A stretch of 33,630 nucleotides of DNA, from the NCBI GenBank assembly GCA_013824615.1, contig PNOC01000039.1, forward strand, positions 1 through 33,630, in the 5' to 3' direction. Shown in pieces: positions 16,188 to 32,902 of the stretch. The translations under genes were made by a program, and so were the position numbers. The DNA is from Thermodesulfovibrio sp. (GTDB lineage: Bacteria; Nitrospirota; Thermodesulfovibrionia; Thermodesulfovibrionales; UBA6898). Under the pieces are notes generated by a model, which was given only the letters and a program-made list of their open reading frames with translations, did not search any database and was not told where the DNA came from. How positions within the stretch are numbered: the stretch's first letter is position 1; each line of letters starts with the position of its first letter.

Positions 16188-16277
16188 CAAATCGGCAATA
16201 GCTCTGCAGGGCAGCTCGCCCAGCTGAAAATGGCTGACGTCTCAACTTCTCAACGGAATTAGACTCATGAATAGTAA

Positions 16278-16307
16278 TTGGACAATTGCGTCTATCCATG
16301 GTAAATA
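16278..16307 (+). promoter_or_regulatory. Possible promoter of the small lipoprotein gene
   Basis: TTGGAC at 16278-16283 and TAAATA at 16302-16307 are 18 bases apart and lie 33 bases before the ATG at 16340. The match is modest. Confidence 0.3.
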
Positions 16308-16339
16308 ATAAGAGAATATACTACAAAGGAGGTGTCACA

Positions 16340-16522
16340 ATGACATTGATCAGGAAAGTGCTTTTGCTGGTTTGCGGTCTCATGCTGGCCTTCTCTCTGG
16401 CAGCATGCGAAAAGAAAGGTCCTCTGGAGAAGGCGGGGGAAAAGGTCGATAAAGCGATCGAGAAGGCCGGAGAAAAGGTAGAAAAAGCCGGTGACAAGGT
16501 GAAGGAAAAAACAGAGAAGTAG
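16340..16522 (+). CDS. Small lysine/glutamate-rich lipoprotein (60 aa)
   Basis: ATG 16340 is fixed by a strong ribosome site (AAAGGAGG, seven bases upstream). The product has a signal peptide ending in the lipobox SLAAC and a mature part of only about 37 residues made of repeated EKAGEKV/EKAGDKV units, which should form one charged amphipathic helix or coiled coil at the membrane. It resembles small envelope lipoproteins of the entericidin or Lpp size class, but I do not recognise a named family. A perfect 10-bp hairpin follows 50 bp after the stop. Confidence 0.82.
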   Translation: MTLIRKVLLLVCGLMLAFSLAACEKKGPLEKAGEKVDKAIEKAGEKVEKAGDKVKEKTEK

Positions 16523-16570
16523 CAATACCCACGGGGCACTCCGAAGGCTGTTTTTCGGAAAGGAACAATA

Positions 16571-16596
16571 GGGCACAGGAGCAATATCCTGTGCCC
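16571..16596 (+). terminator. Hairpin after small lipoprotein gene
   Basis: GGGCACAGGA (16571-16580) and TCCTGTGCCC (16587-16596) pair perfectly around a six-base loop, 48 bp after the stop codon. No T-run follows, so it may be a weak terminator or an mRNA 3'-end stabiliser. Confidence 0.5.
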
Positions 16597-16659
16597 TGTC
16601 TGCCGGCGGGCAGGCTTGCCCCGGAACATTGCGTTTCTCCTGCGTGTTTTTAAAGTAGT

Positions 16660-16687
16660 GTCATCCTCCGACTTGATCGGGGATCCA
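16660..16687. repeat. REP-like palindrome, solitary
   Basis: The reverse strand reads GGATCCCCG, an 8-10 base centre, then AGGATGACA. The same halves occur at 30141-30168, and a related version forms the second hairpin of the MITE-like element (1095-1118). Confidence 0.6.
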
Positions 16688-16990
16688 TGGTTTGGTGTTC
16701 GCTGTCCTTTGCAGCACCAAATTTCGCGTTTTACCCCAAACCCAGGCACCTTTCTCGATGCGCAAGCAAACAGATACCGCGCTTTTTTCCTGAACACGCG
16801 CGAATTCCGATTTGCTGAAACTGTTTCATTCCGTTCCTAATCCGCAAAATGAAGAGGTTTTCTCCGAAGAGAATTACTCACTATAATTGTGATTCACACG
16901 ACATCAGCTAAAAATTCATGTACACCTGCAAGCCAACACCTTCATTTGACTGCTATGATGAAAATTTCCGGAGGAAACCGTGATATAAGC

Positions 16991-17026
16991 GATATGGCAG
17001 GGAGATTTAAGCCTCCCTGCCATATC
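16991..17026 (-). terminator. 14-bp-stem hairpin downstream of the S74-chaperone gene
   Basis: GATATGGCAGGGAG (16991-17004) pairs perfectly with 17013-17026 around an eight-base loop. It lies 14 bp after the minus-strand stop codon, in the right place to terminate that gene. There is no strong T-run, so it may work as a transcript-end stabiliser or bidirectionally. Confidence 0.6.
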
Positions 17027-17039
17027 AGTCAAAACTATT

Positions 17040-18056
17040 CTATTTTGAAGCTATTGATCTGCCCGGCTGTTCCACAGACGCAAGCCGCTTTTCCATTGCA
17101 TCGAGAGCTTTCTCCAACTTCTCGATGCGTGTATCCTTTTCGGTAAGCGACTTTTCAAACCCCTTCTGCTGCTCCTTCATCGCCTCGATCAGCACCGGCA
17201 CCAGTTTGTCATAGGAAACAGCCTTATAGCCCTTGCTGTCAGTAAGAACCAGCTCGGGAAATACCTTCTCAACATCTTGGGCAATAAGACCAATCTGTCT
17301 GCCCTCCTTGAACCCTCTCCCTTTATACTCATCCGTCTTCAATATATAGCTCACTCCCTGAAGCTGCATAACCTTAATAAGAGAAGACGCAAGTGGATGT
17401 ATCTCCTTCTTGTAACGAACATCTGACGCGGCGGCAATATCAGCCATGATCAGCGTGCCATGGACCGTCAGCACAGCACTGGTGAAATCTCCGTAGACGA
17501 GGGGGAAAGGAGTCGAGGAATTGGCTATATAGAGCTTGCCATTTCCTTTCTCATTAGACCCGGCATCGATGCCAAGAAACACGTTGTTGCTGCCTGTGCT
17601 TGCATAGCCGGCACGCGCCCCGAGGAAGGTGTTGTTGGAGCCCGCGAGGTTGGTGAAACCGGCTTCCAGCCCGACAGAGGTGCTATAGTCGCCCAAATTG
17701 CTGTAGCCGGCATGTACTCCAAGAAAGGTGTTAAAGGAACCCGTGGTATCGTGACCGGCAGCATAGCCGAAGAAACTATTGCTGAAACCTGAGCCGTTCA
17801 TGTTCCCGGCCAGATTGCCGAAGGCGGAGTTCCAGTTGCCCGAAGTGGTCAACTGACCTGCCCCTGCCCCCACAAAGGTATTGTTTGTTCCAACAGCAAG
17901 GGGATTACTAAGGAGAAATTGATTGCCTGCCACATCCCCCAGAAAAGTATTCACCGTATCCCCACTAGCAGTAATGATAGGTGGCGCCGCCCAAGCAAGA
18001 CCCGAAACAATTAACAACAGTAAAACCAGCAGAGTTCCCGATACCTTTAGTCTCAT
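17040..18056 (-). CDS. Secreted S74-chaperone-domain protein with YadA-like head repeats
   Basis: A 338-residue protein with a Sec signal peptide (cleavage likely after GLAWA), then seven or eight repeats of the type NTFLGxxAG (about residues 35-175), the pattern of trimeric adhesin head repeats. From about residue 211 comes a peptidase S74 intramolecular chaperone domain: SDVRYKKEI (cleavage-site region), GRQIGLIAQDVEKVFPEL, YKAVSYDKLVPVLIEAM, then a C-terminal coiled coil. In phage tailspikes and endosialidases this domain helps the trimer fold and then cuts itself off. Here it sits on a bacterial surface or secreted protein with no phage genes nearby. The start at 18056 has the ribosome site GGGAGGT. 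It is probably monocistronic. Confidence 0.88.
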   Translation of the reverse strand: MRLKVSGTLLVLLLLIVSGLAWAAPPIITASGDTVNTFLGDVAGNQFLLSNPLAVGTNNTFVGAGAGQLTTSGNWNSAFGNLAGNMNGSGFSNSFFGYAAGHDTTGSFNTFLGVHAGYSNLGDYSTSVGLEAGFTNLAGSNNTFLGARAGYASTGSNNVFLGIDAGSNEKGNGKLYIANSSTPFPLVYGDFTSAVLTVHGTLIMADIAAASDVRYKKEIHPLASSLIKVMQLQGVSYILKTDEYKGRGFKEGRQIGLIAQDVEKVFPELVLTDSKGYKAVSYDKLVPVLIEAMKEQQKGFEKSLTEKDTRIEKLEKALDAMEKRLASVEQPGRSIASK

Positions 18057-18619
18057 AATTTACCTCCCTCGATTCATTTTGTCGGCAAAGAGTAGAACAG
18101 CAATAAATGATCACAAAAGTTTTTTTCATCCCCAGCATATTTCTGCATTTATTCTCAGTCTTAACCGGTGATCTTCCTTTTGCAAGAGACAGTCAAGTAT
18201 TTAATATACTCGCATGCTCTAAGTTTTGCCTGTCAATGCTTGACGAAACAGGAAAAGTTGACAGGTCTCGTTCTGCGCTATTGTGTTTAGAATAAAGGAA
18301 ATAACCCAAGAGCTTCCACTTGTACCCCGCATAATTTGCAAAGTACGGGAAATAACGAACAGATTTTATGAGTCGATCTGGTCAACCTGTGCTCCCTATA
18401 TGCGACAGACCAAGACATCAGCTGAACTTTTATGTGCACCTGCCATTAAACACTAGCGGCATGCAGTAACTTGTGCGGATTTTAAAAGAAATCTGATGTA
18501 TTGAACTCTGTCATTCAAGGCAGGTTTTATTATTGACAGTCTGCCGCACTTAAAGCCATCCTATTGCTGTGATTGTAGCCGTGCTTCACGGCTGGAAATG
18601 AAAGGCGGGGGAGGAAGCC
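18057..18619. other. Non-coding divergent gap
   Basis: This 563-bp gap separates divergent genes for two secreted proteins. I see no gene. It is AT-rich; TTGACA occurs at 18258-18263 and 18533-18538 but neither has a convincing -10 at the right distance. A small hairpin AGCCGTGCTTCACGGCT lies at about 18577-18593, just upstream of the next gene. Confidence 0.5.
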
Positions 18620-19213
18620 ATGTCTGGGAAAAAAATATTTTTGTACGTATGTTTTTTGGCGTTTGTCGTTATTGGGCCAGCCAATGCTGCACCTGGGGTG
18701 GAGGTAAGGGATGATCTGACCTTAGGTGGAAACGGAGGGATCGTTTTTCCTGATGGCACAACACAGACAACCGCATCCAGGCCTACCTGGGGCCAGAAGA
18801 TTCCTGGCGTGGCCCGGTGGCAGTTAGTTCTTGGTGGTGAAGCAGTACTTGACAAAGAGACAGGCTTGGTCTGGCAGAGACAGGCTGATGGAGTGGAAAG
18901 GACTTATAGCCAGGCTCTCGACTATTGCACGTTTGGAGGCTTAGCCGGACGGAGAGGTTTGCGGCTTCCAACAATAGAGGAGCTCTCTACGCTTATAGAT
19001 TACTCCATCCCCGGTCAAGGCCTTCCGTCTGATCATCTTTTTATTGGCAATTCTATTACGTCGTACTACTGGTCGTCTACGACCCACTCAGGCGATCCGC
19101 AATGTACTGACTGCGCCTGGGTCGTGCTCTTCGCCAATGGGAATCTCTTTTACAACAACAAGAGCAGCATTAGCACAGACTATGGACCTTTCGTCCGGTG
19201 CGTGCGAGGCTGA
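18620..19213 (+). CDS. Secreted DUF1566 (Lcl C-terminal-like) protein
   Basis: A 197-residue protein with a signal peptide (FLAFVVIGPANAAPG), a short segment LTLGGNGGIVFPDGTTQTT that is common at the start of surface proteins of this type, and a DUF1566 domain (about 75-197). The domain shows the expected LDKETGLVWQRQ, TYSQALDYC, GLRLPTIEELSTLID, SYYWSSTTH and GPFVRCVRG. DUF1566 is a C-type-lectin-like fold of unknown ligand found on secreted proteins and lipoproteins. The ribosome site GGGGGAGGAAGCC precedes the ATG. It is divergent from the S74-chaperone gene, so the two may be separate surface proteins of one locus. Confidence 0.87.
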   Translation: MSGKKIFLYVCFLAFVVIGPANAAPGVEVRDDLTLGGNGGIVFPDGTTQTTASRPTWGQKIPGVARWQLVLGGEAVLDKETGLVWQRQADGVERTYSQALDYCTFGGLAGRRGLRLPTIEELSTLIDYSIPGQGLPSDHLFIGNSITSYYWSSTTHSGDPQCTDCAWVVLFANGNLFYNNKSSISTDYGPFVRCVRG

Positions 19214-19540
19214 CAGTGGCACATTATTTAATATATTGAGTTTAGGCTAACGGTCCATAACATAAACATTATTATCCGGGAGTACTTACATTGTGAAGTC
19301 ATGCGACTGGAGGTGTTCTATTCGAAAAGAAACGATGTGTCTGTCGCAGTAATAATACTTTGAGACCTTCTGTGTGCAGGTGATATAAGCAGGCTTATCG
19401 CTAAAACATTTGTTTGTGGCTGGAATTGTCGTCGCCAGGTCTTTCCCAATGCGTTTATTTCCATTCATACTGTTAATAGAGTTTCAGCGTTTTGTAAAGT
19501 ATCGGTTGGTTGGTGCATCAACGGGATCGCGGCGGGAGCA
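19214..19540. other. Non-coding gap before mtfA
   Basis: I see no gene in this AT-rich stretch. Open frames in it have no ribosome site and do not read as protein. Confidence 0.5.
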
Positions 19541-19549
19541 TGTTATACT
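19541..19549 (+). promoter_or_regulatory. Extended -10 promoter of mtfA
   Basis: TGTTATACT is a good extended -10 (TG, one base, TATACT). No clear -35 is seen. Transcription would start near 19556, giving a very short leader that begins at the ribosome site AAAAGGAGGG before ATG 19570. Confidence 0.45.
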
Positions 19550-19569
19550 AGCCAAAAGGAGGGCATACC

Positions 19570-20370
19570 ATGTTCCACTGGCTCCGCGACCGTCGCCGCG
19601 CCGAGGTGCGGAAACGCCCGTTTCCCCCCGGGTGGGTGGCCTTCATGCATACGAACCTGCCCCATTACTGCCTGCTCGACGACCTTGAGCGGGCTGAACT
19701 CCATGCGACCATGCAGGTCTTTCTGCAGGAGAAGCACTGGGAAGGGTGTGGCGGCCTCGACCTCACCGACGAGATCCGCGTTACCATTGCGGCCCAGGCC
19801 TGCCTGCTGCAGCTGGGACTCCCCCATGACTACTATCGAAACGTAGAGTCGATCCTTGTTTACCCCTCAACCGTGGTGCCTCCCGAGTACCATCCGGGTG
19901 TATTCGAGACCGTGAGCGGCCCGATTGATGCCCCTGTCCCCGTTCTTGGCCAGGCCTTTGCCCAGGGTCCGGTGATCCTTGTCTGGGACGCCGTCCTTCA
20001 CGGAGCGCGCCACCCCGATCAGGGGCATAACGTGGTTTACCATGAGTTCGCCCACAAGCTCGACATGCTCGACGGTGCTGCCGACGGCACCCCGCTTATT
20101 GCCGACCGCGACCAGTTCGCCGAATGGGTGGCCGTCTGTTCCTATGAATTCCTGCGGCTGCGCAGCCTCGCTGAGAAGGGCCACAAAACCTTTCTTGACG
20201 CTTATGGCGCCACGAACGAGGCCGAGTTCTTCGCCGTGGCAACAGAGGAGTTCTTCGACCGTCCCCTTGCCCTCCAGAAGCACACGCCCGATCTCTACCG
20301 CGTCCTCAGTGCCTACTACCGCCAGGACCCGGCCGGCCGCGCGAACCGTACCTGCCCCGAAGAAGAGTGA
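19570..20370 (+). CDS. mtfA: MtfA-family zinc metallopeptidase (M90)
   Basis: A 266-residue cytosolic protein of the MtfA family. The zinc motif HEFAH is at residues 158-162 (in VVYHEFAHKLDMLDG) and the downstream glutamate ligand lies in EAEFFAVATEEFFDRP (about 217-230). Other family marks are LDLTDEIRVTIAAQACLLQLG and YRNVESILVYPS. In E. coli MtfA is an aminopeptidase that interacts with the Mlc repressor and affects glucose PTS expression; whether that role holds here is unknown. The strong ribosome site AAAAGGAGGG fixes ATG 19570. GC-rich codon use differs from the AT-rich gap before it. Confidence 0.92.
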   Translation: MFHWLRDRRRAEVRKRPFPPGWVAFMHTNLPHYCLLDDLERAELHATMQVFLQEKHWEGCGGLDLTDEIRVTIAAQACLLQLGLPHDYYRNVESILVYPSTVVPPEYHPGVFETVSGPIDAPVPVLGQAFAQGPVILVWDAVLHGARHPDQGHNVVYHEFAHKLDMLDGAADGTPLIADRDQFAEWVAVCSYEFLRLRSLAEKGHKTFLDAYGATNEAEFFAVATEEFFDRPLALQKHTPDLYRVLSAYYRQDPAGRANRTCPEEE

Positions 20371-20494
20371 GTGTGTCCCCTGCGAAGCCCAATAATATTG
20401 CGCGGTAAAGACTGAGAAGTCCGTCCTGCAATGCAGCAGGTGTGCGCGGCGTTCCCGGTGCCTCACGTAGAAATCGTGTTGAAATGATAATCGT

Positions 20495-20515
20495 CGCCAT
20501 TTTGACGCCATTTTG
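20495..20515. promoter_or_regulatory. Tandem CGCCATTTTG repeat, candidate antitoxin operator
   Basis: CGCCATTTTG occurs at 20495-20504 and again at 20506-20515, 11 bp apart (one helical turn). The second copy touches a possible extended -10 (TGCTAAACT, 20514-20522) just upstream of the antitoxin ribosome site. RHH antitoxins of this class bind short repeats and repress their own operon, so this is a plausible autoregulatory operator. Confidence 0.5.
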
Positions 20516-20542
20516 CTAAACTCAATCAAAGGAGACAACAGT

Positions 20543-20824
20543 ATGGCTATCACAAAAACAGAAGACAGAATCCCGGCGCGGATGCCCCACGAGGTTTATG
20601 AGCGCATAGCCGAGGCAGCCAAAACCGTCGGTGCAACGCTCAACCAGTTCATTGTTCAGTCGGCCCTCGAAAAGGCCAACGATATCATAGAACGGGAACG
20701 CACCATTCATCTCTCCACACGGGCGGCAAAAGCCGTCTTTGACCTTCTGGAAAACCCGCCTCAACCGACCATGCAATTGAAAAAGGCCCTTCAGCAGAGA
20801 AAAAAACTGTTGTGCTTAAAATAG
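20543..20824 (+). CDS. TacA-type (DUF1778) ribbon-helix-helix antitoxin
   Basis: A 93-residue protein. The N-terminal 60 residues (DRIPARMPHEVYERIAEAA, then VGATLNQFIVQSALEKA) are the DUF1778 ribbon-helix-helix DNA-binding domain; the tail (TRAAKAVFDLLENPPQPT) is the part that, in TacA relatives, wraps and blocks the acetyltransferase toxin. ATG 20543 is chosen for the ribosome site AAAGGAG eight bases upstream; an upstream TTG at 20513 is less likely. It overlaps the toxin gene by 13 bp, the usual antitoxin-first order. The tandem repeat just upstream is a candidate self-regulation site. Confidence 0.9.
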   Translation: MAITKTEDRIPARMPHEVYERIAEAAKTVGATLNQFIVQSALEKANDIIERERTIHLSTRAAKAVFDLLENPPQPTMQLKKALQQRKKLLCLK

Positions 20825-21318
20825 TTCCGCTTTCCCGTGAGCACGACCGCGCTGCCTTTGATTGTGGGGTTGCGGAGCTGAACGCCTTTCTTAAGGCCAC
20901 TGCCCGCCAGCGTGGAGAAAAAGGGCTCTCCCGCACGTTTGTCCTTGCTGACGGCGATGAGCCCGCTGTCATACTGGGATTCTTTACCCTTACTCTTTGT
21001 GAGCTTACAGCAGAACCTCTTCCTCCTGCTTACGCCGCGATGTATCCCGGCCACAACCTTCCCGCGGTGCGCCTCGCTCGCCTCGCGGTATCTATCCGGC
21101 ATCAGGGCCGGGGATACGGGACCCTTATGGTGGCAGAAGCGGTCAATCGGACCATTCTCATCGCTGATCAGGCCGGGAGCATAGGTCTGTTTGTGGATGC
21201 CAAAAACAACCGCGTCGAATACTTCTATAGGCGCTACGGTTTTGTCTCTCTGCCCGGCCAGTACAAAACCTTGTTCCTGCCTCTAAAAACACTCCGGGCT
21301 GCGATAAAGCCTCACTAG
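20812..21318 (+). CDS. TacT-type GNAT acetyltransferase toxin
   Basis: A 168-residue GNAT protein. IVPLSREHDRAAFDCGVAEL and LNAFLKATARQ are the standard opening of TacT/AtaT-type toxins, which acetylate the amino group of charged tRNAs and stop translation. The acetyl-CoA loop reads RHQGRGYGTLM, and the family end FYRRYGFVSLPG contains the conserved tyrosine. It starts at GTG 20812 inside the antitoxin gene. The target tRNA cannot be read from sequence. The protein appears full-length with its motifs intact, so the pair is probably functional. Confidence 0.9.
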   Translation: MLKIVPLSREHDRAAFDCGVAELNAFLKATARQRGEKGLSRTFVLADGDEPAVILGFFTLTLCELTAEPLPPAYAAMYPGHNLPAVRLARLAVSIRHQGRGYGTLMVAEAVNRTILIADQAGSIGLFVDAKNNRVEYFYRRYGFVSLPGQYKTLFLPLKTLRAAIKPH

Positions 21319-21610
21319 AACAGCTCTGTAATTGAAAGCTGATACGCAAAGTATAGCGGTGTTGCTGTCACCTGATAACCCGCACACTGTTCCATTGATT
21401 AATCTCGCAGATTGCCGGTTGAAATATGCATATGATTAATGCGAGAAAAAGAGGGCTCGAAGAGTGAAGAGAAGAGCATGTAGAGGAAGACTCAAGAATA
21501 AAGACCTACACCCCATTGGAGTCGTTTTTTCTGCACAACCAATCCTATCATGGCTACTGTTATGTTATCGCTTCTAGCAAGGCCCCCTTTTATCTCAACA
21601 CAATTCCAGT

Positions 21611-22729
21611 TTAGTGGCAGTCCGTACCTAGAGCGACATAGCTTGAGTTATACGCCCCCACACAGGTGAGGACACCTCCTGTATTGGATACCGACCCTCC
21701 ATCAAGCTGGCTGCTTCCTACCAATATTATGCCTCCGTTATTATTAGTAATTGTATTAGTAATTCCCCTAATCACTGAATGGTCAATCTTCACCGTCCCG
21801 GAGCCAAAGCTGTGGACGCCGTAACTATTATTCCCACCCGCAGCGATAGCCGTGACATTCATCATCGTAGGAGAGGAGAAGGAATTGTCAATGCCATAGC
21901 TATTATTTCCACCCGATGCCGTAGCCGTGACGTTGGTCATTATCGGCGCGGGGGAGTAGTAGTTGAAGACACCCGAGTTGCTACTAGTCCCCCCGGAAGC
22001 GGTAGCCGTGACATTGGTCATCGTAGGAGAGGAGGAGTTGTTGTAGACGCCGTAGTTATTACTTCCACCCGAAGCGGTAGCCGTCACATTCGTCATCATG
22101 GGTGCGGAGTTGTCATTAAAAACGCCGCTGTTACTAAGCCCCCCCGAAGCGGTAGCCGTAACGTTGGTCATCGTGGGCGCGGAGGAGTAGTTGTAGACGC
22201 CGTGTCTATAAATAGTCCCACCAGAACTGGACGCAGTTACGTGGATAATCGATGGCGACGCAGTTGAGTTCAGTATAGCTACAGTGCGACTACCTCCTGA
22301 ACCTATGTTCTCCACCGTGAGGAACCGAAGTCCGGCATTATCGGCACCTTTTACCGTTCCGGTGTTAGGAGGCGAAGCATTGGTACTTATAGCGGCGGTG
22401 AGCGTCGTCGCCTCTTCTCCCGACCCCTCGATTGAAACATGCGGCTTCATCTGAAGGCTATTTGCACCAAGGTTGTATGTCCCTGGACCAAGTTTGATCA
22501 GGTATCTGTTCGCGGCTGAGTTGTCCATGATGCCACTAAGCGTGTTCAACAGAGCAGTCCCGTTTGCTGTGTCAGTGTCTCCCGATTTTGTGCTTACGAC
22601 AATTATAGACCCAATGTCTGTATAATCCCCTCCGATGACAATGTTTGAACCGTATGCAGGTGTCATGACAAGTAACAGACCGATGCAAGCCGCAAGTCCG
22701 ATATTAAGTTGAATCCCCGCCCCTCTCAT
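21611..22729 (-). CDS. Secreted right-handed beta-helix repeat protein
   Basis: A 372-residue protein with a Sec signal peptide (GLLLVMTPAYGS), an N-terminal cap (YLIKLGPGTYNLG, SLQMKPHVSIEGSGEE) typical of pectin-lyase-like folds, then at least five tandem units of about 25 residues following the pattern GVYNxSSxPTMTNVTATASGG (about residues 165-310), and a short C-terminal part. Each unit should form one or more rungs of a parallel beta-helix. The serine/threonine/asparagine-rich repeats point to a surface or secreted binding protein; no catalytic residues are evident. ATG 22729 has the ribosome site AAAGGAGG. The final 70 residues (SSQLDGGSVSNTGGVLTC) resemble the ends of related secreted proteins. 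Confidence 0.85.
   Translation of the reverse strand: MRGAGIQLNIGLAACIGLLLVMTPAYGSNIVIGGDYTDIGSIIVVSTKSGDTDTANGTALLNTLSGIMDNSAANRYLIKLGPGTYNLGANSLQMKPHVSIEGSGEEATTLTAAISTNASPPNTGTVKGADNAGLRFLTVENIGSGGSRTVAILNSTASPSIIHVTASSSGGTIYRHGVYNYSSAPTMTNVTATASGGLSNSGVFNDNSAPMMTNVTATASGGSNNYGVYNNSSSPTMTNVTATASGGTSSNSGVFNYYSPAPIMTNVTATASGGNNSYGIDNSFSSPTMMNVTAIAAGGNNSYGVHSFGSGTVKIDHSVIRGITNTITNNNGGIILVGSSQLDGGSVSNTGGVLTCVGAYNSSYVALGTDCH
21800..22235 (-). repeat. 75-80 bp tandem repeats inside the beta-helix gene
   Basis: The plus-strand motif GCCGTGACATTGGTCATC and close variants recur at about 21849, 21924, 22004, 22080 and 22155. They encode the MTNVTATASGG units. Such repeats can gain or lose units by recombination or slippage. 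Confidence 0.75.
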
Positions 22730-23222
22730 TAAGTGCCTCCTTTTGAGTATGTTGTTTGCTCTGCTGTAAGTATATTCTTCAGAATTCCATTATGTAAACC
22801 GCAAAAGCGCTCACGCAGGCTAGGCCTGAGACAATAAAGACTCGGAGCTGGTATAGTCAATAGGAACTGGGTTCTTGGTTTACTGACGCGTCCTGAGCGC
22901 GGCGAACTCCGAGACATCATACTTAATCATCGCAATAGAACCTCCCAGGCCGTCCGTTGGCTGTGGCGGAGGACATTTCCGGGGACACCATACTCATTTG
23001 CTTTCGCTGCAACTCCGCAAATCCATCGCCAAAAGCTTAAGTGTTTGTTCCTGTGAGCAAATGACGCCGAGATGTCCACCTGATACTTCGCACCTAAGCA
23101 TGCATTTCAGAAATGCGGATATCCGGGTGAAACTTAGCGTCATGAATGAAGAATGAAGGCTTGACCCCGAGCCGCGTCGATGCGACCAAAACATTTATCA
23201 TTTCTAATCGACTCTGCTCGAC
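22730..23222. other. Non-coding gap with possible mobile-element relic
   Basis: I see no convincing gene. GAGACATCATACTTAAT at about 22910-22926 and GGGACACCATACTCATT at about 22981-22997 are related to each other and to the GGGGACACCATACTTAAT-type sequences found near IS200/REP-type transposases. This may be a decayed element at the edge of the AT-rich cassette. The open frame at 22994-23194 (minus) has no ribosome site and does not read as protein. Confidence 0.35.
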
Positions 23223-24014
23223 TTATTGCTTGTCAATGAGCTTTTTCCCAAGCAGAACCAATAGTCGCAAACTGTCTTCTATTGCACTGGCTATCTGCTC
23301 TTTGTAAAAACTATTATATACAGCTGTTGTGAAAGGGCCGGTCGCAATGCCAAATTTATCCATCCCGTAACAGCCGAAACCTTTTTTCGGAACTATTCTG
23401 CATTTTGTGCTTATCAATTCATATTTGCGCCAAAATCCTGACCAGTTTTTTGCTATTTCTTTGCCGCCAAATATGACAGGCCCTTTATCCACCCGGTCGA
23501 ATGTTTTTTCTGCAGCGTCTTTCAGCAATTTTCGCAGGACAGTAGAGTTCAGATCCATTTGCTCGCCTTTTGCGGCAATGAGTTGTTCAGACGACAGATT
23601 TATATTAGCGATTTCTCCGGTCGCATATATGTCAAAAGGGTCCCCAGAAGTATGGTAAATAGGTATGACATGCGGTGGCGCACTCATGTCCTGTATATGA
23701 TGGGCCAACCTGCCTGCATGTTCATATGTATCTCGCAGGTTGCACGCCGCTGATTCCACAATTTTGTTTATAAGTAGGTCAACTCTCTTTTGATTTGACC
23801 TATGAACACCCCACCGGGTCTTTCCAAGTCTATTCCCTGGATCAAAGAAGTGCCAATTAGATAATCGCTGGAAAGTGAAGATGTTATCTTCTTCTTTTGA
23901 GCCATATATGAATCGGACAGTTAATTTTTTATCTTGCTCTGATTGCAAAGGATATAATTCGCTATAAATCATCACAGCTTTTTTGGCTATCTCCGAATGT
24001 GCATTTGCTTCCAT
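23223..24014 (-). CDS. Zinc phospholipase C / S1-P1 nuclease-like protein without signal peptide
   Basis: A 263-residue, mostly helical protein. The segment EHAGRLAHHIQDMSAPPHV holds His105, Asp109 and His115 with the 4- and 6-residue spacing of the zinc ligands in bacterial zinc phospholipase C and S1/P1 nucleases. N-terminal His6 and NWHFFDP (His55, Asp58) add likely ligands. Unlike typical family members it has no signal peptide, so it probably acts inside the cell. It is the last gene of an AT-rich three-gene set, 90 bp after the KAP NTPase gene, with its own ribosome site (GGAGGG). It could cleave phospholipid or nucleic acid; sequence alone does not decide which. An effector role in defence is a hypothesis. 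Confidence 0.7.
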   Translation of the reverse strand: MEANAHSEIAKKAVMIYSELYPLQSEQDKKLTVRFIYGSKEEDNIFTFQRLSNWHFFDPGNRLGKTRWGVHRSNQKRVDLLINKIVESAACNLRDTYEHAGRLAHHIQDMSAPPHVIPIYHTSGDPFDIYATGEIANINLSSEQLIAAKGEQMDLNSTVLRKLLKDAAEKTFDRVDKGPVIFGGKEIAKNWSGFWRKYELISTKCRIVPKKGFGCYGMDKFGIATGPFTTAVYNSFYKEQIASAIEDSLRLLVLLGKKLIDKQ

Positions 24015-24104
24015 AATTACCCTCCTATATATGGTGCGGGGCTACCCATCTGTTCTGGCGGCTTAATTGAAATGCAGTAGTATCTCTGAATCTTTACTGC
24101 ACTA

Positions 24105-26249
24105 TTAAAAATCCTTGCCTTCAGAGGCATCTTTCAAATAGTATTTGTTCCCTGTGACAATACTTTTATATACGGCCTTTATATAGGGCGTTAGTTCTTT
24201 TCCGGATTCTAATTCGCTATTTGCCCTATCCTTAAGAACGTCATAATCAAGAATGTTTGCCAGATCCTCTTTCTTAATAGAGGAATAAGGTCCACCAGCA
24301 GAATCAGAGCCAGTGCGACCAATGATTTTAGCTGCAATTTCCACCCCTGCCACTTTTTGTAATAAACCCTCAAACAATTTCTTTGTTGCATCCTGGTTGA
24401 CTCTTTTTAGCATGAAAAAGACCTTACTGGCAAATACCGAGTCACTCAGATTACCAGCATCAAATGCTCGTACCGCAACCTGCGTCCAAATTTCCTTTGT
24501 TCTTAGATAATCGCCGTCATTTACCCACCTTTGTTCAACAGGTTTTGCTTCACCTTCTTTAATCTCGCCATACTGCTCCAAAAGAGTGCGCATAATTGTC
24601 CCTGAAATGGGTAAATACTCTTCTTTTTCACAAAGAGACATTACTATTCCGGTCTTGTCGTTAGCTTTACCGACGATGTCTTCTGTGAGCCAAATCAGGC
24701 TGCGGAAAGGTTCGAACTGGAAGAAGCCAAACGCTGCGGTTTCCTTTTCCTTCAAATAATCAGAAGACAACAGGACATTATAAAAATCGCGCAATAACGG
24801 CAGTCGTTGCTCCTCACTAATATTCTTGGAATTATATCGGAGAAGATCGAACAGTCTTTCTATGGAATCATTTGTAATCGCGTTCTGCAGGATTGCCTTT
24901 CGGTCAATCTTGCCCCCGATTAAGGAAATAACTTCCTTTTCAGAGAAATAATCGGTGGGAACTCTATAGTGTAGGGCAACATATAAACGATCTGGAGATG
25001 CAACACGCCCGTTCCTGTCATATTCGGTAGAGCCGAAGGCGAACTTTTCCTCGACTGTCAAAGGGAATAGTTCTTCAAGTATTTTACCGACAAGATATCG
25101 ATCTCGTTCCGGACACTTATCTATTGCAGTTTTTCTCTTGTCTTCGTACTTCTTGACTATTTCCTTTGGCTCAGTCATTTCTACTATGGTACTAAAGCCC
25201 CTGCCGACAAAAGCGGCTGGCTCGTCCTTGATTAGTGCGTAAACTTCGGGGGCCTTTATTGCAAGAATTGATAAACCATAAATGTCTGCAAAACACACCT
25301 CCCCATAGGTCTCTTTTATTGTCAGCCGGAGGTGATTAAATATTCGCCTCAATTCCCTAGGATTGCGAATTAAGTCTCGAGAATATTGCCAGTAAAGCGA
25401 GGCGAGTCTATCTTGGTCTTCCACATATCTATCAGTTAAATTGTGATCAGCAAGAGATGCCAGTTCCTGCATCGCCAGCTTATGCATATCAGCTTTCCCT
25501 ATAACCGGCAAAGGTACGCGCAACTGAATTACTTTATCTAAATATAGACTACCTTTGGCGATATTCCCCTTTTCTAAAGCAGAAGACAGATATTCGGGAT
25601 CAAAGGCTAAGATAAACGTAGTTCGGGGAAAATCGGCGACTGCCTTTACAAGCCGTATAACCTGAAAGGCTTCCTCGGGTGTTAATCTATCTATGTCGTC
25701 AATTATTACGACAATAGGCTTGCCCAGCGATAGCAGGGCCTCTCGGACTAAATTCTTCTTCTTTAATAAGTTCAGTTCTTTTAGCTTTCCAATTTCTTCC
25801 GATGCAGTGCCGACCGCAGATATGACTTCCTTGAGAATAGTTGCCCATGGTTCCGCACCTGGAATTAGTTTTAAGACAGTGAATAGTTTTGAATAGCTGA
25901 GAAGCTGTTTAGCAGCAGATTTTGTTTCTTCCGGCCTATCTGAAATATCAAGCTGTGCCGAAAAGTGCACAAGAAAATCTTGGACAAGGACTTCGGAGCT
26001 TCCAGCTAGCCAAGGATTGAACTCAACTATAATAGGGTTGTCTTCTTTGGCTTTAAGATATTTATTTATAAGATTAATTAGCGATGTTTTGCCATATCCC
26101 CACTCCCCTTCTAGTGAAATGGTAAGACAATCCTGTCCTTCCTTCAGAGCCACTATAGCAGCTAAACGCTCAGCGAATGATTCACGATTCAATAAATCAG
26201 GAGAGTCACTCGCTCCCGTTATGGGAGAATCATGATTGAAAGATGACAT
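24105..26249 (-). CDS. KAP-family P-loop NTPase
   Basis: A 714-residue protein of the KAP NTPase family (PF07693). Walker A GEWGYGKTS is at residues 48-56, the family motif VEFNPW at 75-80, Walker B VVIIDDIDRLT at 180-190, followed by EEAFQVIRLVKAVADFP and FILAFDPEYL. The family often has membrane helices between Walker A and B; here there is only a moderately hydrophobic stretch (about 120-148), so it may be soluble or peripherally bound. The C-terminal 400 residues are helical and not recognised. I chose ATG 26249 (ribosome site GAGG nine bases upstream) over the longer frame from 26276. It follows the zinc-ribbon gene by 29 bp. KAP NTPases occur in plasmids, phage-exclusion (PifA) and other conflict systems. 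Confidence 0.88.
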   Translation of the reverse strand: MSSFNHDSPITGASDSPDLLNRESFAERLAAIVALKEGQDCLTISLEGEWGYGKTSLINLINKYLKAKEDNPIIVEFNPWLAGSSEVLVQDFLVHFSAQLDISDRPEETKSAAKQLLSYSKLFTVLKLIPGAEPWATILKEVISAVGTASEEIGKLKELNLLKKKNLVREALLSLGKPIVVIIDDIDRLTPEEAFQVIRLVKAVADFPRTTFILAFDPEYLSSALEKGNIAKGSLYLDKVIQLRVPLPVIGKADMHKLAMQELASLADHNLTDRYVEDQDRLASLYWQYSRDLIRNPRELRRIFNHLRLTIKETYGEVCFADIYGLSILAIKAPEVYALIKDEPAAFVGRGFSTIVEMTEPKEIVKKYEDKRKTAIDKCPERDRYLVGKILEELFPLTVEEKFAFGSTEYDRNGRVASPDRLYVALHYRVPTDYFSEKEVISLIGGKIDRKAILQNAITNDSIERLFDLLRYNSKNISEEQRLPLLRDFYNVLLSSDYLKEKETAAFGFFQFEPFRSLIWLTEDIVGKANDKTGIVMSLCEKEEYLPISGTIMRTLLEQYGEIKEGEAKPVEQRWVNDGDYLRTKEIWTQVAVRAFDAGNLSDSVFASKVFFMLKRVNQDATKKLFEGLLQKVAGVEIAAKIIGRTGSDSAGGPYSSIKKEDLANILDYDVLKDRANSELESGKELTPYIKAVYKSIVTGNKYYLKDASEGKDF

Positions 26250-26278
26250 CAAGTTACCTCTGGAGCGTCTTCGCACAT

Positions 26279-27166
26279 TTAAATCTTATACAACCTCTTT
26301 GCTTCAAAGTGTTCAGCCAATCCCAATATTGTTTTATCAAAGAGATCAACGGAAGCATCAGCATTATGTACTGCAGCACTCAAGTCCGAATATATCTTCG
26401 AAAGCGATGGGAACCTGTCTTTAAAGTCTTTAGGCAACAGTTCCATGTAATTTTCCATTAACTTATCGGCTGAAAGGTCAGCATCAGAGGAAAGTTCCCG
26501 TGTGTATTGTTCAATAAAAGTCCTTAGAAAAAAGAGCCCAGCAAGGGTCTGCCCCGAATTGTGGGCGACGATTGCATCGGAAAAATACTTCTTCTGCGCT
26601 TTCGGAAGATCTTTCGGGACTTCAACGTGCTCTATCGTCGAACGCCCTTCAAGAACTAATTTTAAACCATCTCGACGAATCAAAAAGACTGTTGGAAGTC
26701 CCTTGCAGGACTGACATTCGTATTCAACGGCAAAAATCTGCTGCCATTTTCCATTTGCCCGGTGGTTTAGTGCAACATGATCTTTAGGTAAAGGATTAAA
26801 AGGTTCAATGCGGTCACAGGATTGATTAGAGCAGAAGGTTTTAATTGTCGGCAAAGAAATTACTAAATGATCAGGACTGCGGAGGTTGCTCATTCCAGTG
26901 GATTTCGGGCCGGATTCAAGAAACCATATCCACGAGAGAATATTAATGCACTGTCTTGTCTTTGCATGATCCTGTAATACAGCTGAAGGCGGCCCAGACG
27001 TTTTCAACATAATCGATGCAGGTGTCATTAATTTTTTTACATCTATTTCTACCTTTTGATAGAGATGTTTGTTTTCAAGCAATTGGCGGAATCCGGCAGA
27101 AATTAAGGGCGGTAAACCTTCCTGAACACTTGTAAGATACTTGGCAAAATCTTCGTGTGACCCCAT
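26279..27166 (-). CDS. Zinc-ribbon protein with DUF4145/HEPN-like C-terminus
   Basis: A 295-residue protein. Four cysteines, Cys112/Cys117 and Cys151/Cys154 (FCSNQSC and YECQSCKG), form a likely zinc ribbon. The C-terminal third (about 190-295) is helical: SGQTLAGLFFLRTFIEQYTRE, then PSLSKIYSDLSAAVHNAD with His267, the style of DUF4145 and other HEPN-related domains, many of which are nucleases or their inactive relatives. It is the first gene of the AT-rich cassette, 29 bp before the KAP NTPase gene. A perfect TATAAT lies almost against the ATG on the minus strand and no ribosome site is seen, so the start or leader is uncertain. I do not recognise a named family for the whole protein; a sensor or effector partner of the NTPase is inferred. 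Confidence 0.72.
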   Translation of the reverse strand: MGSHEDFAKYLTSVQEGLPPLISAGFRQLLENKHLYQKVEIDVKKLMTPASIMLKTSGPPSAVLQDHAKTRQCINILSWIWFLESGPKSTGMSNLRSPDHLVISLPTIKTFCSNQSCDRIEPFNPLPKDHVALNHRANGKWQQIFAVEYECQSCKGLPTVFLIRRDGLKLVLEGRSTIEHVEVPKDLPKAQKKYFSDAIVAHNSGQTLAGLFFLRTFIEQYTRELSSDADLSADKLMENYMELLPKDFKDRFPSLSKIYSDLSAAVHNADASVDLFDKTILGLAEHFEAKRLYKI

Positions 27167-27632: not shown

Positions 27633-28988
27633 ATGAAAATAAAACTTATCGCGCCGCGTGAACAGCGTGAAGACGCATTATCCAGCCCATTTAAACTGCA
27701 GAGGGTAAATCTCCCTCTCCTGGCAGCGCTTACTCCACCCGGCCATACGGTTACCCTGGTCGATGAGGCCTTTGCCCCTGATGATACTGATCAGGATGTG
27801 GATCTGGTGGGTATCACGGTCATGACTGATGTTGTGCCAAGGGCCTATGACATCGCTGATGCCTATCGCCGGAAGGGGGTGAAGGTGGTGATGGGGGGAA
27901 TACATCCCACGGTATTGCCTGAGGAAGCCTTAGGGCATGCAGACGCTGTCGTCGTGGGAGAAGCGGAAGGTATCTGGCCGCGGCTACTATCGGATGCCTC
28001 CTCGGGACAGATGCAAAGACTCTATCGGGCCGAAAAAATGACCGATCTTCAGGGCCTGCCGAAGCCGCGGCGTGATCTCTTTCCCGGAACCAAAGGGAAA
28101 AGCTATATCCCGGCCCCCGTCGGCGTCGAGACGTCCCGCGGATGCCCAAACGATTGCGAATTCTGCTCCATCAGCCGGACCCTGGGATCTCAATATCGGG
28201 TAAGACCGGTCCCGGAGGTTATTGCCGAGATAGAGGCTCTTGCTTCACCGTACATCTTCTTCGTCGATGACGCCCTTGCGCTGAACCGTACAGCGGCCAA
28301 AAAGCTTTTCACGGAAATGATACCGCTTAACCGATTATGGCTGGGGCAGGGGACGGTGTCTCTTGCTGAAGATCCGGAACTGCTCAAGCTGATGAAGCGC
28401 TCAGGCTGCCTGGGGCTCCTGATCGGCTTTGAATCAGTACAGAAAGCAGCACAGGATGAGGTAAGGAAAATAAAGAACCTCAGGATCGATTTTGATGAGG
28501 CCATGCGTCGTTTTCATGGCGAGGGTTTCGGCATACTCGGAGCTTTTGTGCTTGGCTTTGATCACGAAAACAGGGATGTCTTTGATCAGACCCTTGAGTT
28601 CATAATGAGGAGTTGTATAGATTGTGCCGAACTGAGAATCCTCACGCCGTATCCGGGCACCCGGTTATATGACCGTCTCTTGAGCGAAGGCAGATTGTTC
28701 GAGCCTGACTGGTGGCTCAGGGGATATCCTCCTGATACGCTTCTGTATCAACCCCGGGGCATGACGGCCGAAGAGCTCATCAACGGATTCGCCCGCCTGA
28801 ACAGAGAGGCCTATTCCTTCGGCGCCATAACAAAACGCTTCTTCGGCATGAGCCCGTGGAAGCGGGGGCTGCTCGGCTGCCAGGTATATGCCGGGATAAA
28901 TCTGGCTACCCGCAAACGTTATTTCGAAGGTCTGAAGAATCCGCAACCCTATGCAGGGACTTCGACTGCAAAAAGGGAAAAAGTTTAG
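27633..28988 (+). CDS. B12-binding-domain radical SAM enzyme
   Basis: A 451-residue class B-type radical SAM protein. The N-terminal half is a cobalamin-binding-like Rossmann domain (LIAPREQREDAL, LVDEAFAPDD, VGITVMTDVVPRAYDIADAYR, VVMGGIHPTVLPEEAL, DAVVVGEAEGIWP). The iron-sulphur cluster motif CPNDCEFC gives Cys171, Cys175 and Cys178, followed by FFVDDALALN, LGLLIGFES and ILTPYPGTRLYDRL. Relatives are methyltransferases or ring/chain-modifying enzymes, including hopanoid and lipid tailoring enzymes. It uses no DxHxxG base-off motif that I can see, as is common in this group. It is alone between non-coding stretches, so the substrate cannot be inferred from neighbours. Confidence 0.9.
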   Translation: MKIKLIAPREQREDALSSPFKLQRVNLPLLAALTPPGHTVTLVDEAFAPDDTDQDVDLVGITVMTDVVPRAYDIADAYRRKGVKVVMGGIHPTVLPEEALGHADAVVVGEAEGIWPRLLSDASSGQMQRLYRAEKMTDLQGLPKPRRDLFPGTKGKSYIPAPVGVETSRGCPNDCEFCSISRTLGSQYRVRPVPEVIAEIEALASPYIFFVDDALALNRTAAKKLFTEMIPLNRLWLGQGTVSLAEDPELLKLMKRSGCLGLLIGFESVQKAAQDEVRKIKNLRIDFDEAMRRFHGEGFGILGAFVLGFDHENRDVFDQTLEFIMRSCIDCAELRILTPYPGTRLYDRLLSEGRLFEPDWWLRGYPPDTLLYQPRGMTAEELINGFARLNREAYSFGAITKRFFGMSPWKRGLLGCQVYAGINLATRKRYFEGLKNPQPYAGTSTAKREKV

Positions 28989-30179: not shown

Positions 30180-30327
30180 TAGCAGGCTGTTGAAAAAGAC
30201 AACAAATGTCTCTCAGGTTGTCATACTCGCGAAAGCGGGTATCCAAATGTCCCTGAAAACAATGGATTCCCGTCTGCACGGGAATGACGAAAACCCGGTC
30301 GCAAATAGTTTTTCAACAACCTGTTAG
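30180..30327. repeat. MITE-like element, copy 2 (148 bp)
   Basis: Inverted ends AGCAGGCTGTTGAAAAAG (from 30181) and TTTTTCAACAACCTGTTAG (30309-30327) frame two palindromes at 30223-30242 and 30266-30285 (ATTCCCGT/ACGGGAAT). Ends, layout and length match copy 1 at 1014-1160. No coding capacity. It fills most of the gap before the DsrC-like gene. Confidence 0.75.
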
Positions 30328-30387
30328 ACACAGACTCTATTTATGCGTATCAGTAGCGCTTCTAAAAAGCATAGCAGGAGGTGTTTA

Positions 30388-30732
30388 ATGGCTGTACTCG
30401 TATGTTCCGGAGTGAATATACAGATCGATGACGAGGGGTATCTTGAAAATCCGGATGACTGGAATGAAAAGGTGGCGTCTGCGCTGGCAGAGAAAGAAGG
30501 TGTTGATGAGCTGACCGAAGACCGGATGGAGATCATCAGGTTCCTGAGAGCCCATTACAGGAAATATAATTTCTTTCCCATCCTCAGTTCCATCTGCAAA
30601 AATATCCACCAACCCAGGGAATGTGTAAACGAAGAGTTCATGTCCCCGCTTATTGCCTGGAAAGTGGCGGGACTGCCGAAACCGAACAGGCAGGTCATAG
30701 GGTATCTCAGAGGAGAGGGAGGTGTTGTATGA
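30388..30732 (+). CDS. DsrC/TusE-family protein lacking the C-terminal cysteines
   Basis: A 114-residue protein of the DsrC/TusE/RspA family: IQIDDEGYLENPDDWNEKVA, LTEDRMEIIRFLRAHYRKY and AGLPKP are the usual blocks. In true DsrC, which carries sulphur to and from dissimilatory sulphite reductase, the C-terminal arm ends in conserved cysteines; here the arm reads WKVAGLPKPNRQVIGYLRG and has none. It is therefore more likely a regulatory-type (RspA-like) paralogue or one with another partner than a sulphur carrier. The other cysteines (in SSICKNIH and PRECVNEE) are not at the catalytic position. ATG 30388 has the ribosome site GGAGGTG; the longer frame from 30343 does not. Confidence 0.85.
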   Translation: MAVLVCSGVNIQIDDEGYLENPDDWNEKVASALAEKEGVDELTEDRMEIIRFLRAHYRKYNFFPILSSICKNIHQPRECVNEEFMSPLIAWKVAGLPKPNRQVIGYLRGEGGVV

Positions 30733-32083: not shown

Positions 32084-32902
32084 TCACTGCTTCAAGCCCA
32101 GATACCATTCGGTAACATCACTGCCTATTCCGAATTGGGCAAGATGGCGCAGGTCCAGCAGCAGCACGTCAGGTGTACTGAACTCCAGTATGCGGTATTT
32201 TGTGTCTGTCCAGACACGCAGCTTCCTGCCCAGTATTTCTGTTTCCTGCGGGATGGTGAGGCGGAGACGGCGGCTCAGGTTGATACCCGCCAGCGCTGCT
32301 GCGTCCGTCACCATATCGGCACAGTTGTTGTCCCTTAAACTGAACTGGTCATATGTCCGCTGCGTCACGTATTCATAGATCATCTGATGTCGTTGTTTGG
32401 TGATCGGCATGCGCCAGACGAACGTGGGGGTATGCTCATTTCTTTTGGCCTCCAACCGGCCGTCGTCCATCACCTCCCACAAATAAGCAATGGGATCGGG
32501 ATGATTATCACGAAACCTCTGGTATACCCCTTCCAGGTAATGCAGCTTGCCCAGCCCGAAGTTGCCGTTGTGGCCGTATTCAAGCCGGCTCTGCGGACTT
32601 TCCAGCATGATCCAGCTGTGTCCCCCCGGATTTTTTTTAAACGAGAAGGCAACGGACAGGGGAGTGCTGAAGTCCCTGTTGCCGGCGATATCAATCAGGA
32701 TGTAGAGATAATAACCCTCATCTCCCACCGGTGTTCGTGTTGCGGGATCAAGGTCGGCATCAGGGGCAAAGCGGCACGCAACCGATACCGGCTGGGCACT
32801 CCAGCCGTCGGGTTGCAGCGGCGCGTGGATCCGGGCCTGTTGGACGCAGCCGACGAGTCCGATAGCCGTTATCAATAGCAGGAGTCTGGTGAGAGCTGTC
32901 AT
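32084..32902 (-). CDS. Lipoprotein with permuted papain-like motif, paralogue 2
   Basis: A 272-residue protein closely related to the product of 1215-2060: it shares CRFAPDADLDPATRTPVGDE, then GYYLYIL, TFVWRMPITK and FGIGSDVTEWYLGLK. The His (GGHSWIMLES) and Cys (DNNCADMVTDAAALAG) of the permuted papain-like site are both kept. I chose ATG 32902, which gives a normal signal peptide with lipobox LVGC; the frame extends to a TTG at 32956 inside the neighbouring gene. The upstream minus-strand YihY-family gene ends 43 bp away, so they may be co-transcribed. It converges with the AI-2E transporter gene. Confidence 0.83.
   Translation of the reverse strand: MTALTRLLLLITAIGLVGCVQQARIHAPLQPDGWSAQPVSVACRFAPDADLDPATRTPVGDEGYYLYILIDIAGNRDFSTPLSVAFSFKKNPGGHSWIMLESPQSRLEYGHNGNFGLGKLHYLEGVYQRFRDNHPDPIAYLWEVMDDGRLEAKRNEHTPTFVWRMPITKQRHQMIYEYVTQRTYDQFSLRDNNCADMVTDAAALAGINLSRRLRLTIPQETEILGRKLRVWTDTKYRILEFSTPDVLLLDLRHLAQFGIGSDVTEWYLGLKQ

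Follow-up and report, generated by a model that had tools for sequence, protein, structure and literature searches.

The DNA analyzed here (the window) is an entire contig of 33,630 bases from a genome of 3.6 Mb in 96 contigs (G000); its relatives and their loci are designated by G and L numbers. Our analysis identified two related lipoprotein genes, A and B, together with the following genes.

1-984, forward strand: CerS2, the 3' part of a gene for a putative GNAT-type N-acyltransferase of the bacterial ceramide synthase kind (Acetyltransf_6), its 5' end missing at the contig edge.
1215-2060, forward strand: lipoprotein A, 281 amino acids (confirmed ORF), with lipid site Cys28, His104 (1524-1526), Glu117 (1563-1565), Tyr193 (1791-1793) and Cys203 (1821-1823).
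2119-9708, forward strand: type I FAS/PKS of 2529 amino acids with the domain order NMO (enoyl reductase-like)-KS-AT-ACP-KR-DH (Pfam).
9726-10487, forward strand: 4'-phosphopantetheinyl transferase (PPTase; Pfam ACPS).
10480-11724, forward strand: FemAB/GNAT-like acyltransferase (Pfam).
11721-12668, forward strand: ABC exporter ATPase, DrrA/NodI-like (Pfam, NCBIfam).
12665-13780, forward strand: ABC-2 permease (Pfam).
13762-15570, forward strand: homologue of EptA-like phosphoethanolamine transferases (Pfam, NCBIfam).
27633-28988, forward strand: B12-binding radical SAM protein (rSAM), a cluster member (Pfam; synteny).
32084-32902, reverse strand: lipoprotein B, 272 amino acids (confirmed ORF), with Cys19, His95 (32618-32620), Glu108 (32579-32581), Tyr184 (32351-32353) and Cys194 (32321-32323).

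Among the NCBIfam matches listed for the FAS/PKS (25 of 143 families) are PfaA-like ones, all below cut-off, and the DrrA and NodI scores among the matches listed for the exporter ATPase are likewise below the NCBIfam cut-offs. The EptA-like protein consists of five hydrophobic segments (hydropathy script) followed by a Sulfatase domain; it scores far below the cut-off of each of the 19 NCBIfam families that it matches, and we assign no particular activity to it. The FemAB/GNAT-like protein has neither an NCBIfam nor a PDB sequence match.

A tblastn search with the window genes gave the order CerS2-A-PKS-PPTase-Fem-ABC-ABC-EptA-TacAT-rSAM in the sister genome G003, followed by B, convergent on rSAM. 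This synteny implies that the lipid operon beside A and the YihY neighbourhood of B, which a preliminary description of this DNA had taken for different contexts, are the two ends of one region. The contexts differ only in appearance: A and B stand at two ends of one cluster, in the same order in G003, and the lipid context claimed for A is supported by the cluster genes. In the window, about 12 kb with TacAT and other genes separate the EptA-like gene from the rSAM gene, and the G003 counterpart of this stretch measures about 2 kb, with TacA/TacT present (L053). The rSAM gene adjoins B in G003 and stands after the exporter genes in L009; in the window, three genes intervene between rSAM and B, encoding a carboxypeptidase-regulatory-like, a DsrC-like and an AI-2E family protein.

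Some further features of the window were observed. The stretch 15594-27166 encodes CAP, an S74 chaperone, Lcl_C, an M90 peptidase, the TacA/TacT toxin-antitoxin pair, a KAP NTPase and others, and the DsrC-like protein between the rSAM gene and B lies at 30343-30732. A short inverted-repeat element (GTCATTCCCGC..GCGGGAATCCA) has copies at 1051-1076 and 30220-30288, with 3 matches at up to 3 mismatches versus 0 expected by shuffling. One of the copies lies in the gap between CerS2 and A; at this place in L029 and L030 the stop codon of one gene overlaps the start codon of the next.

The preliminary description had also reported proteins encoded at 1215-2060 and 32084-32902, on opposite strands and about 30 kb apart, sharing long identical blocks and a His and Cys (His104 and Cys203 in A, His95 and Cys194 in B), and all of this is correct. 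A and B are identical at 160 of 265 residues (60%; BLASTP E 8e-127, far beyond chance), and a search of the whole G000 genome gave a copy number of two, with no third copy at E<=0.001. The longest block identical in A and B comprises 27 residues, CRFAPDADLDPATRTPVGDEGYYLYIL, and is encoded with silent differences in 12 of its 27 codons; taken over the whole alignment, 62 of the 162 residues identical in A and B are encoded by differing codons. These silent differences indicate that the identity of the blocks comes from selection, not from recency. Both proteins carry signal peptides of the lipoprotein type (SVAG/C at Cys28 in A, LVG/C at Cys19 in B), and the lipid-site Cys is invariant in 25 of 25 family members. 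It should be noted that six of the 25 have Lys or Arg at position -1 of the lipid Cys, a poor fit to the lipobox, and that the lipoproteins of L010, L012, L014, L021, L024 and L029 have an RWLAGxAx[KR]C signal region; the anchoring of the members with Lys or Arg before the lipid Cys may differ.

The 60% identity and the long identical blocks had suggested a recent duplication of an envelope enzyme into unrelated contexts, an explanation that we now consider hardly credible. NG86 dN/dS values were 0.278/0.966 for A against B in the window, 0.110/0.814 for A against the A orthologue of the sister species, and 0.152/0.827 for B against the B orthologue, and the low ratios on the A and B lines show purifying selection. 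Orthologues of both copies are present in G003 (A 81-82% identity, B 75%), and a look at copy number among relatives, which the preliminary description had proposed, thus gives two in G000 and both orthologues in G003. In a tree of the lipoproteins with incomplete bootstrap convergence and 12 of 22 inner branches open, B groups in one clade with its G003 orthologue and the Syntrophaceae gene L020 (support 100/98). The tree and the conservation counts comprise 25 of the 27 lipoprotein genes, L019 (undetermined bases) and the G001 fragments being left out, and the second copy of L029 was taken as 511-1314, cut at both ends and with undetermined bases at its 3' end. A and B are old paralogues with a dS of about 1; this value, the separate clades and the presence of both orthologues in the sister species rule out a recent duplication, and the membership of A and B in one cluster speaks against unrelated contexts. 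As a separate observation, the lipoprotein genes of L029 form a tandem pair (511-2299) separated by a 3' fragment of the CerS2 gene, as if the CerS2 end and the lipoprotein had been duplicated locally.

To define the gene neighbourhoods, window genes were compared by tblastn with the loci of 27 lipoprotein genes. CerS2 is the preceding recognized gene for 16 of the 27 (window A, L007, L008, L010, L011, L012, L014, L017, L018, L019, L021, L022, L024, the first L029 copy, L030 and G001), and in L029 and L030 the lipoprotein start codon overlaps the CerS2 stop. Seven lie elsewhere in the cluster (window B, L005, L009, L013, L016, L020 and the second L029 copy); two form the L023 tandem pair beside SPT-CerS-CerR-PAP2, with no PKS within the L023 stretch; and two have no cluster gene in the stretch examined (L015 and L033, the latter a 5.8-kb contig). 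Among 28 chosen genomes, CerS2 at >=65% identity was found in 17 of 20 lipoprotein-positive genomes versus none of eight negatives. For this survey the query was taken from G241, itself among the 17 positives, G319 was left out, and G308 and G311 were represented by the apparently identical genomes G295 and G107. G309 has CerS homologues of only 28-30% identity and G323 only one of 41%; in G316 none reaches E<=1e-10, though its lipoprotein is accompanied by PKS and exporter genes. The EptA-like gene is present in four of six lipoprotein-positive genomes versus one of 289 others, the lone case being a contig-edge fragment in a genome with 8% contamination, and it partly serves as a cluster marker. 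We also observed genes for B12-binding radical SAM proteins with DUF4070 near SPT/CerS genes in distant genomes (L023 12942-14510 and L024 907-2418).

Several lines of evidence link these neighbourhoods to sphingolipids. The CerS2 fragment at 1-984 has 72% identity to its full-length L030 orthologue, which in turn has 33% identity over 97% cover to a protein encoded on a Roseomonas marmotae plasmid and occupying the cerS place of a sphingolipid cluster; by this homology, the gene at 1-984 probably belongs to the CerS family. The Roseomonas neighbours encode an acyl carrier protein, a class I/II aminotransferase, a diacylglycerol-kinase family protein, a CDP-alcohol transferase, two LptF/LptG permeases, a nucleotidyl- and a cytidylyltransferase, a fatty acyl-AMP ligase and an NAD-dependent epimerase. 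Both this gene content and the order around the gene are those of the Caulobacter cluster, as described in passages of PMC11324152, which includes LptF2, LptG2, CerS and two nucleotidyltransferases. An aminotransferase-GNAT-epimerase arrangement was also found on a Streptomyces plasmid.

In L014, L022 and L024, CerR- and SPT-like genes are located immediately upstream of the CerS2-lipoprotein-PKS block; a first CerS-like gene (40-43%) intervenes in L014 and L024 and is absent in L022. The best PDB matches of the L022 SPT-like protein are solved serine palmitoyltransferases (E 9e-123). G000 itself has adjacent CerR-, SPT- and CerS-like genes on another contig (C14, 48589-51800; L113), where a 41% CerS2 homologue adjoins SPT, and the CerR/SPT/CerS-like trio is contiguous as well in the lipoprotein-positive Nitrospirota G003, G306, G107 and G295. 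SPT-like matches at E<=1e-40 occur in 281 of 295 genomes of the phylum sample, including lower-identity ones around 43-46% that we take to be related amino-oxo-synthases. SPT was rejected as a cluster marker, SPT-like genes being general in the phylum sample. The wide spread of SPT-like genes and the CerR/SPT/CerS trios suggest that ceramide synthesis is common in the order. Since the L023 lipoproteins stand with ceramide genes and without a PKS, the evidence points to the ceramide pathway as what the lipoprotein contexts have in common; G316, with PKS and exporter genes beside its lipoprotein and no CerS homologue at E<=1e-10, counts against it. Judged by its gene content, the cluster looks as if it makes and exports unusual sphingolipids.

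The cluster is patchy in its distribution, which takes in Nitrospirota, deltaproteobacterial lineages, Verrucomicrobiota and Lentisphaerota, and the lipoprotein family is rare, being found in six of 295 genomes of the phylum sample and in two of 395 genomes sampled from the phylum of G312, both already in our set. We compared RpoB and lipoprotein identities for 10 relatives of 12 genomes tried (G314 gave no match and G000 is the reference), taking as the RpoB frame the longest open stretch per locus, in some cases cut at the locus edge. Percent identities to G000, RpoB first and lipoprotein (against A) second, are as follows.

G003: 90/80
G308: 78/79
G309: 56/79
G310: 55/75
G312: 63/74
G316: 55/69
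G317: 55/70
G318: 55/62
G320: 59/63 (lipoprotein 74% to B)
G323: 50/60 (first L023 copy)

The lipoprotein is less conserved than RpoB within the genus and more conserved between phyla. This excess between phyla indicates that the cluster moves horizontally, vertical descent not explaining it; by this measure of protein identity, we regard the cluster as spreading horizontally.

We next turn to what the family itself resembles. Neither A nor B has a significant Pfam, NCBIfam or PHROG match, and A, the one searched against the PDB, has no sequence match there. B weakly resembles Phage_lipoprotein (E 0.034, signal region only) and phrog_7090 (E 0.2). A phage or mobile origin of A was rejected, since tblastn against phage and plasmid records gave nothing at E<=0.01. 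One of 21 members scanned at E<=10 gave a weak match to Amidase_6 (E 0.037), which is presumably a papain-like clan family. The same 21 members gave no Pfam match to Peptidase_C92 (PF05708; E<=10, HMMER filters on), Lnb_N/DUF4105 (PF13387) or LRAT (PF04970), and none of the three was matched in the G000 genome; PF13387, PF05708 and PF04970 were sought in 61, 148 and 148 genomes, respectively. For profile comparison, alignments were made from 20 Lnb_N stretches and from eight C92 sequences out of 15 C92 matches listed. The hhalign comparison with C92 was not significant (P 0.04-0.12, probability about 1%), with the catalytic Tyr/Tyr-Asp and Cys in register, and that with Lnb_N gave a probability of 0.2%, only the stretch around the GHxxx motif being aligned.

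These results bear on the explanation that A and B are Lnb-like lipoprotein N-acyltransferases adding a third acyl chain to lipoproteins. The His...Cys order, a GH[ST]-x-x-x-[LI]-like motif as in Lnb_N, and the lack of any Lnb_N match in G000 would fit such a role; however, the absent Pfam match and the hhalign result rule out membership in Lnb_N, and a patchy spread with a secondary lipid cluster is unlike that of a housekeeping step. We therefore regard this role as very improbable.

Structure prediction was more informative for B than for A. The A model (21 sequences) was weak (pLDDT 58.8), and the model of mature B (25 sequences) reached a pLDDT of 78.6 and a pTM of 0.79; the underlying alignments, A2 (21 members) and A3 (25 members), overlap largely, and the two models are not independent. 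Foldseek alone gave a significant fold match for neither model. VIA-align was run on the Foldseek candidates, which means that families absent from the candidate list are not excluded. With the B model (894 chains aligned), the top entry was TseH (6v98, Z 10.5 over 138 residues), followed by the B. cereus C92 enzyme BcPPNE (3kw0, Z 7.6 over 125 residues), PPPDE1 (3ebq, Z 6.9 over 120 residues) and Aichivirus 2A (7zv6, Z 5.7 over 97 residues; 7zv1, the same protein, Z 5.6), and the next entry was unrelated (Z 2.2). Of the 595 chains aligned with the A model, TseH (6v98, Z 8.7) alone reached Z>=2. VIA-align warns that a Z under 8 may reflect merely a common arrangement, so that of the B-model matches only TseH stands clear. 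All five B-model entries with Z>=5 (6v98, 3kw0, 3ebq, 7zv6 and 7zv1) form one fold class, the Aichivirus 2A proteins (7zv6, 7zv1) being, as we assume, permuted papain-like. The folds of 6v98, 3kw0 and 3ebq are classed as permuted papain-like in passages of PMC3142127 and PMC12994826. The predicted A/B domain is thus permuted papain-like, of the NlpC/P60, LRAT/C92 type, a reading of the models that is well supported. The core of this fold is a beta sheet, with the His ahead of the helix that carries the Cys.

Conservation agrees with a Cys-His enzyme site, which A and B are likely to hold. In A numbering, all 25 members keep His104, Glu117 and Cys203, and 23 keep Tyr193; a GD motif (Gly70 in 25 of 25, Asp71 in 24 of 25) lies just ahead of strand 75-80 in the A model, and a GD motif on strand 1 is reported for the permuted group (PMC10318531). 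The catalytic set of permuted enzymes joins a Cys and a His to a Tyr and a polar residue, which is Glu64 in BcPPNE (PMC3142127), and the order His, third polar residue, Tyr, Cys found here is that of permuted NlpC/P60 proteins; the putative roles of Glu117 and Tyr193 are assigned by position and order, without a residue-level structural alignment. The permuted papain-like site with a His...Cys order that the preliminary description had proposed is supported by the VIA-align fold and by conservation: the B model, compared with permuted folds as had been suggested there, is closest to TseH, BcPPNE and PPPDE1, and at the level of the fold the prediction does not speak against a meeting of the His and Cys.

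The superfamily of the predicted fold, the lipoprotein signal and the weak Amidase_6 match of one of 21 members would also be expected of peptidoglycan or peptide hydrolases like canonical NlpC/P60 enzymes, merely carried along with the lipid cluster. We consider this distinctly unlikely, since the fold matches are permuted members, of which YiiX, BcPPNE and PPPDE1 have a hydrophobic pocket, with a fatty acid observed in that of YiiX (PMC3142127), 25 of 27 lipoprotein genes are located beside lipid genes, and the family is rare (six of 295 genomes). Permuted NlpC/P60 enzymes have lipids as ligands or substrates (PMC3142127, PMC12994826), and acyl groups of lipids or lipoproteins are the substrates of published permuted members (PMC12994826, PMC3142127, PMC10318531). 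Together with the sphingolipid context, this makes A and B probable lipid-remodelling enzymes of the cell envelope, and the envelope enzyme of the preliminary description remains probable from lipoprotein signals, predicted fold and lipid context.

Our preferred reading, which we hold with somewhat more confidence than doubt, is that A and B remodel an exported, PKS-derived sphingolipid, as acyltransferases working through a Cys thioester or as lipases. What the analysis shows is homology, conservation, a predicted fold, synteny, horizontal transfer and purifying selection; we infer the localisation, substrate, reaction and order of steps as follows. The cytoplasmic PKS/FAS would make a special acyl chain, which CerS2 would attach to the serine palmitoyltransferase product, the spt-, cerR- and first cerS-like genes being supplied from elsewhere in G000. 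The ABC exporter would carry the ceramide across the inner membrane and the EptA-like protein would add a head group. From their tethers in the periplasm or outer membrane, A and B would then transfer or hydrolyse an acyl chain of the exported sphingolipid, with Cys203, primed by His104 and Glu117 and with Tyr193 at the carbonyl, forming the acyl-thioester. It should be noted that TseH was inactive in a mass-spectrometry assay and active only in a fluorescence assay (PMC12994826), which counts against this proposal. So do the non-significant Foldseek and profile results, the poor lipobox of six members, the L015 and L033 stretches without cluster genes, the low-identity or missing CerS matches of G309, G323 and G316, and the fact that SPT does not track the family.

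Whether the outcome would be transfer or hydrolysis separates this reading from one in which A and B are lipid hydrolases (a ceramide N-deacylase or a lysolipid-forming phospholipase) that turn over or recycle the cluster lipid and are not building acyltransferases. Tox-Act1, and TseH in one of two kinds of assay, act as phospholipases (PMC12994826), and the C92 protein 3kw0 is described as a lipid amidase (PMC10318531). LRAT and Lnb relatives, in contrast, are acyltransferases (PMC12994826), and the coupling with biosynthetic genes is tight: the overlap of lipoprotein start and CerS2 stop in L029 and L030 favours a biosynthetic step. Recycling hydrolases are thus a serious possibility, though clearly the less probable one.

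Remodelling of an exported sphingolipid by A and B can be compared with several known systems. TseH (6v98) is the best structural match of both models and has a permuted core, and its clade (DUF6695) has been grouped with Tox-Act1, DUF4105, YiiX and LRAT (PMC12994826); it is likened to A and B by fold only: it has 9-10% identity to them and, unlike these lipoproteins encoded in a biosynthetic cluster, serves as a secreted antibacterial effector. The YaeF/YiiX-like C92 enzyme BcPPNE (3kw0, Z 7.6) shares the pattern of GD, His, Glu, Tyr-Asp and Cys, whereas the family has no Pfam C92 match and a different gene context. Lnb/DUF4105 is a permuted NlpC/P60 acyltransferase (PMC12994826) with a similar GHxxx[LI] motif, but its profile similarity to the A/B family is not significant.

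At the level of the cluster, SgaAB of Pseudomonas fluorescens MYb115 similarly combines a PKS with an alpha-oxoamine synthase to give sphingoid lipids (PMC12134224). That system is described as two genes (PMC12134224), whereas here CerS2, an exporter, an EptA-like gene and the lipoproteins are added and SPT is located outside the window. The phosphosphingolipid cluster of Caulobacter and Rhodobacteria (CC_1152-CC_1168) likewise has SPT, CerR, CerS, head-group and transport genes (PMC11324152); it differs in its LptC2/F2/G2, a proposed flippase, and its kinase route (PMC11324152), the window having an ABC-2 exporter, an EptA-like gene and a PKS instead, and a papain-like lipoprotein is not named in the cluster as described in passages of PMC11324152. 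Pfa-like secondary lipid synthases share KS-AT-ACP-KR with a PPTase and a sporadic distribution by HGT (PMC3098273), but the window PKS has an enoyl reductase-like domain fused in front and a DH behind, a type not met in the portions of PMC3098273 consulted. Among the titles, abstract starts and passages listed from an open-licence library, none joined such lipoproteins with sphingolipid genes.

A more far-reaching interpretation, which we put forward tentatively and think rather unlikely to hold in full, is that A and B would be the first known periplasmic sphingolipid acyltransferases with a permuted papain fold, each with its own stage or membrane in a horizontally spreading pathway by which anaerobic Gram-negatives would make, export and finish a PKS-derived phospho-sphingolipid. 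They might, for instance, add or exchange an acyl chain of the exported ceramide, and the ABC-2 pair would be a dedicated sphingolipid exporter.

The cluster bears on a gap in the biology of bacterial sphingolipids, namely their crossing of the inner membrane and their modification on its far side. Passages of PMC11087976 report that no flippase or transporter has been identified, and LptC2/F2/G2 and CC_1166 are transport candidates proposed in PMC11324152. With its exporter, candidate head-group transferase and lipid-type cysteine enzyme, all next to ceramide genes, the cluster provides further named candidates for each missing step. In addition, the cluster defines a conserved lipoprotein family of known predicted fold that has no significant Pfam or NCBIfam match and is undescribed in the parts of the open-licence literature searched, and it suggests that uncultured bacteria of several phyla carry out sphingolipid chemistry.
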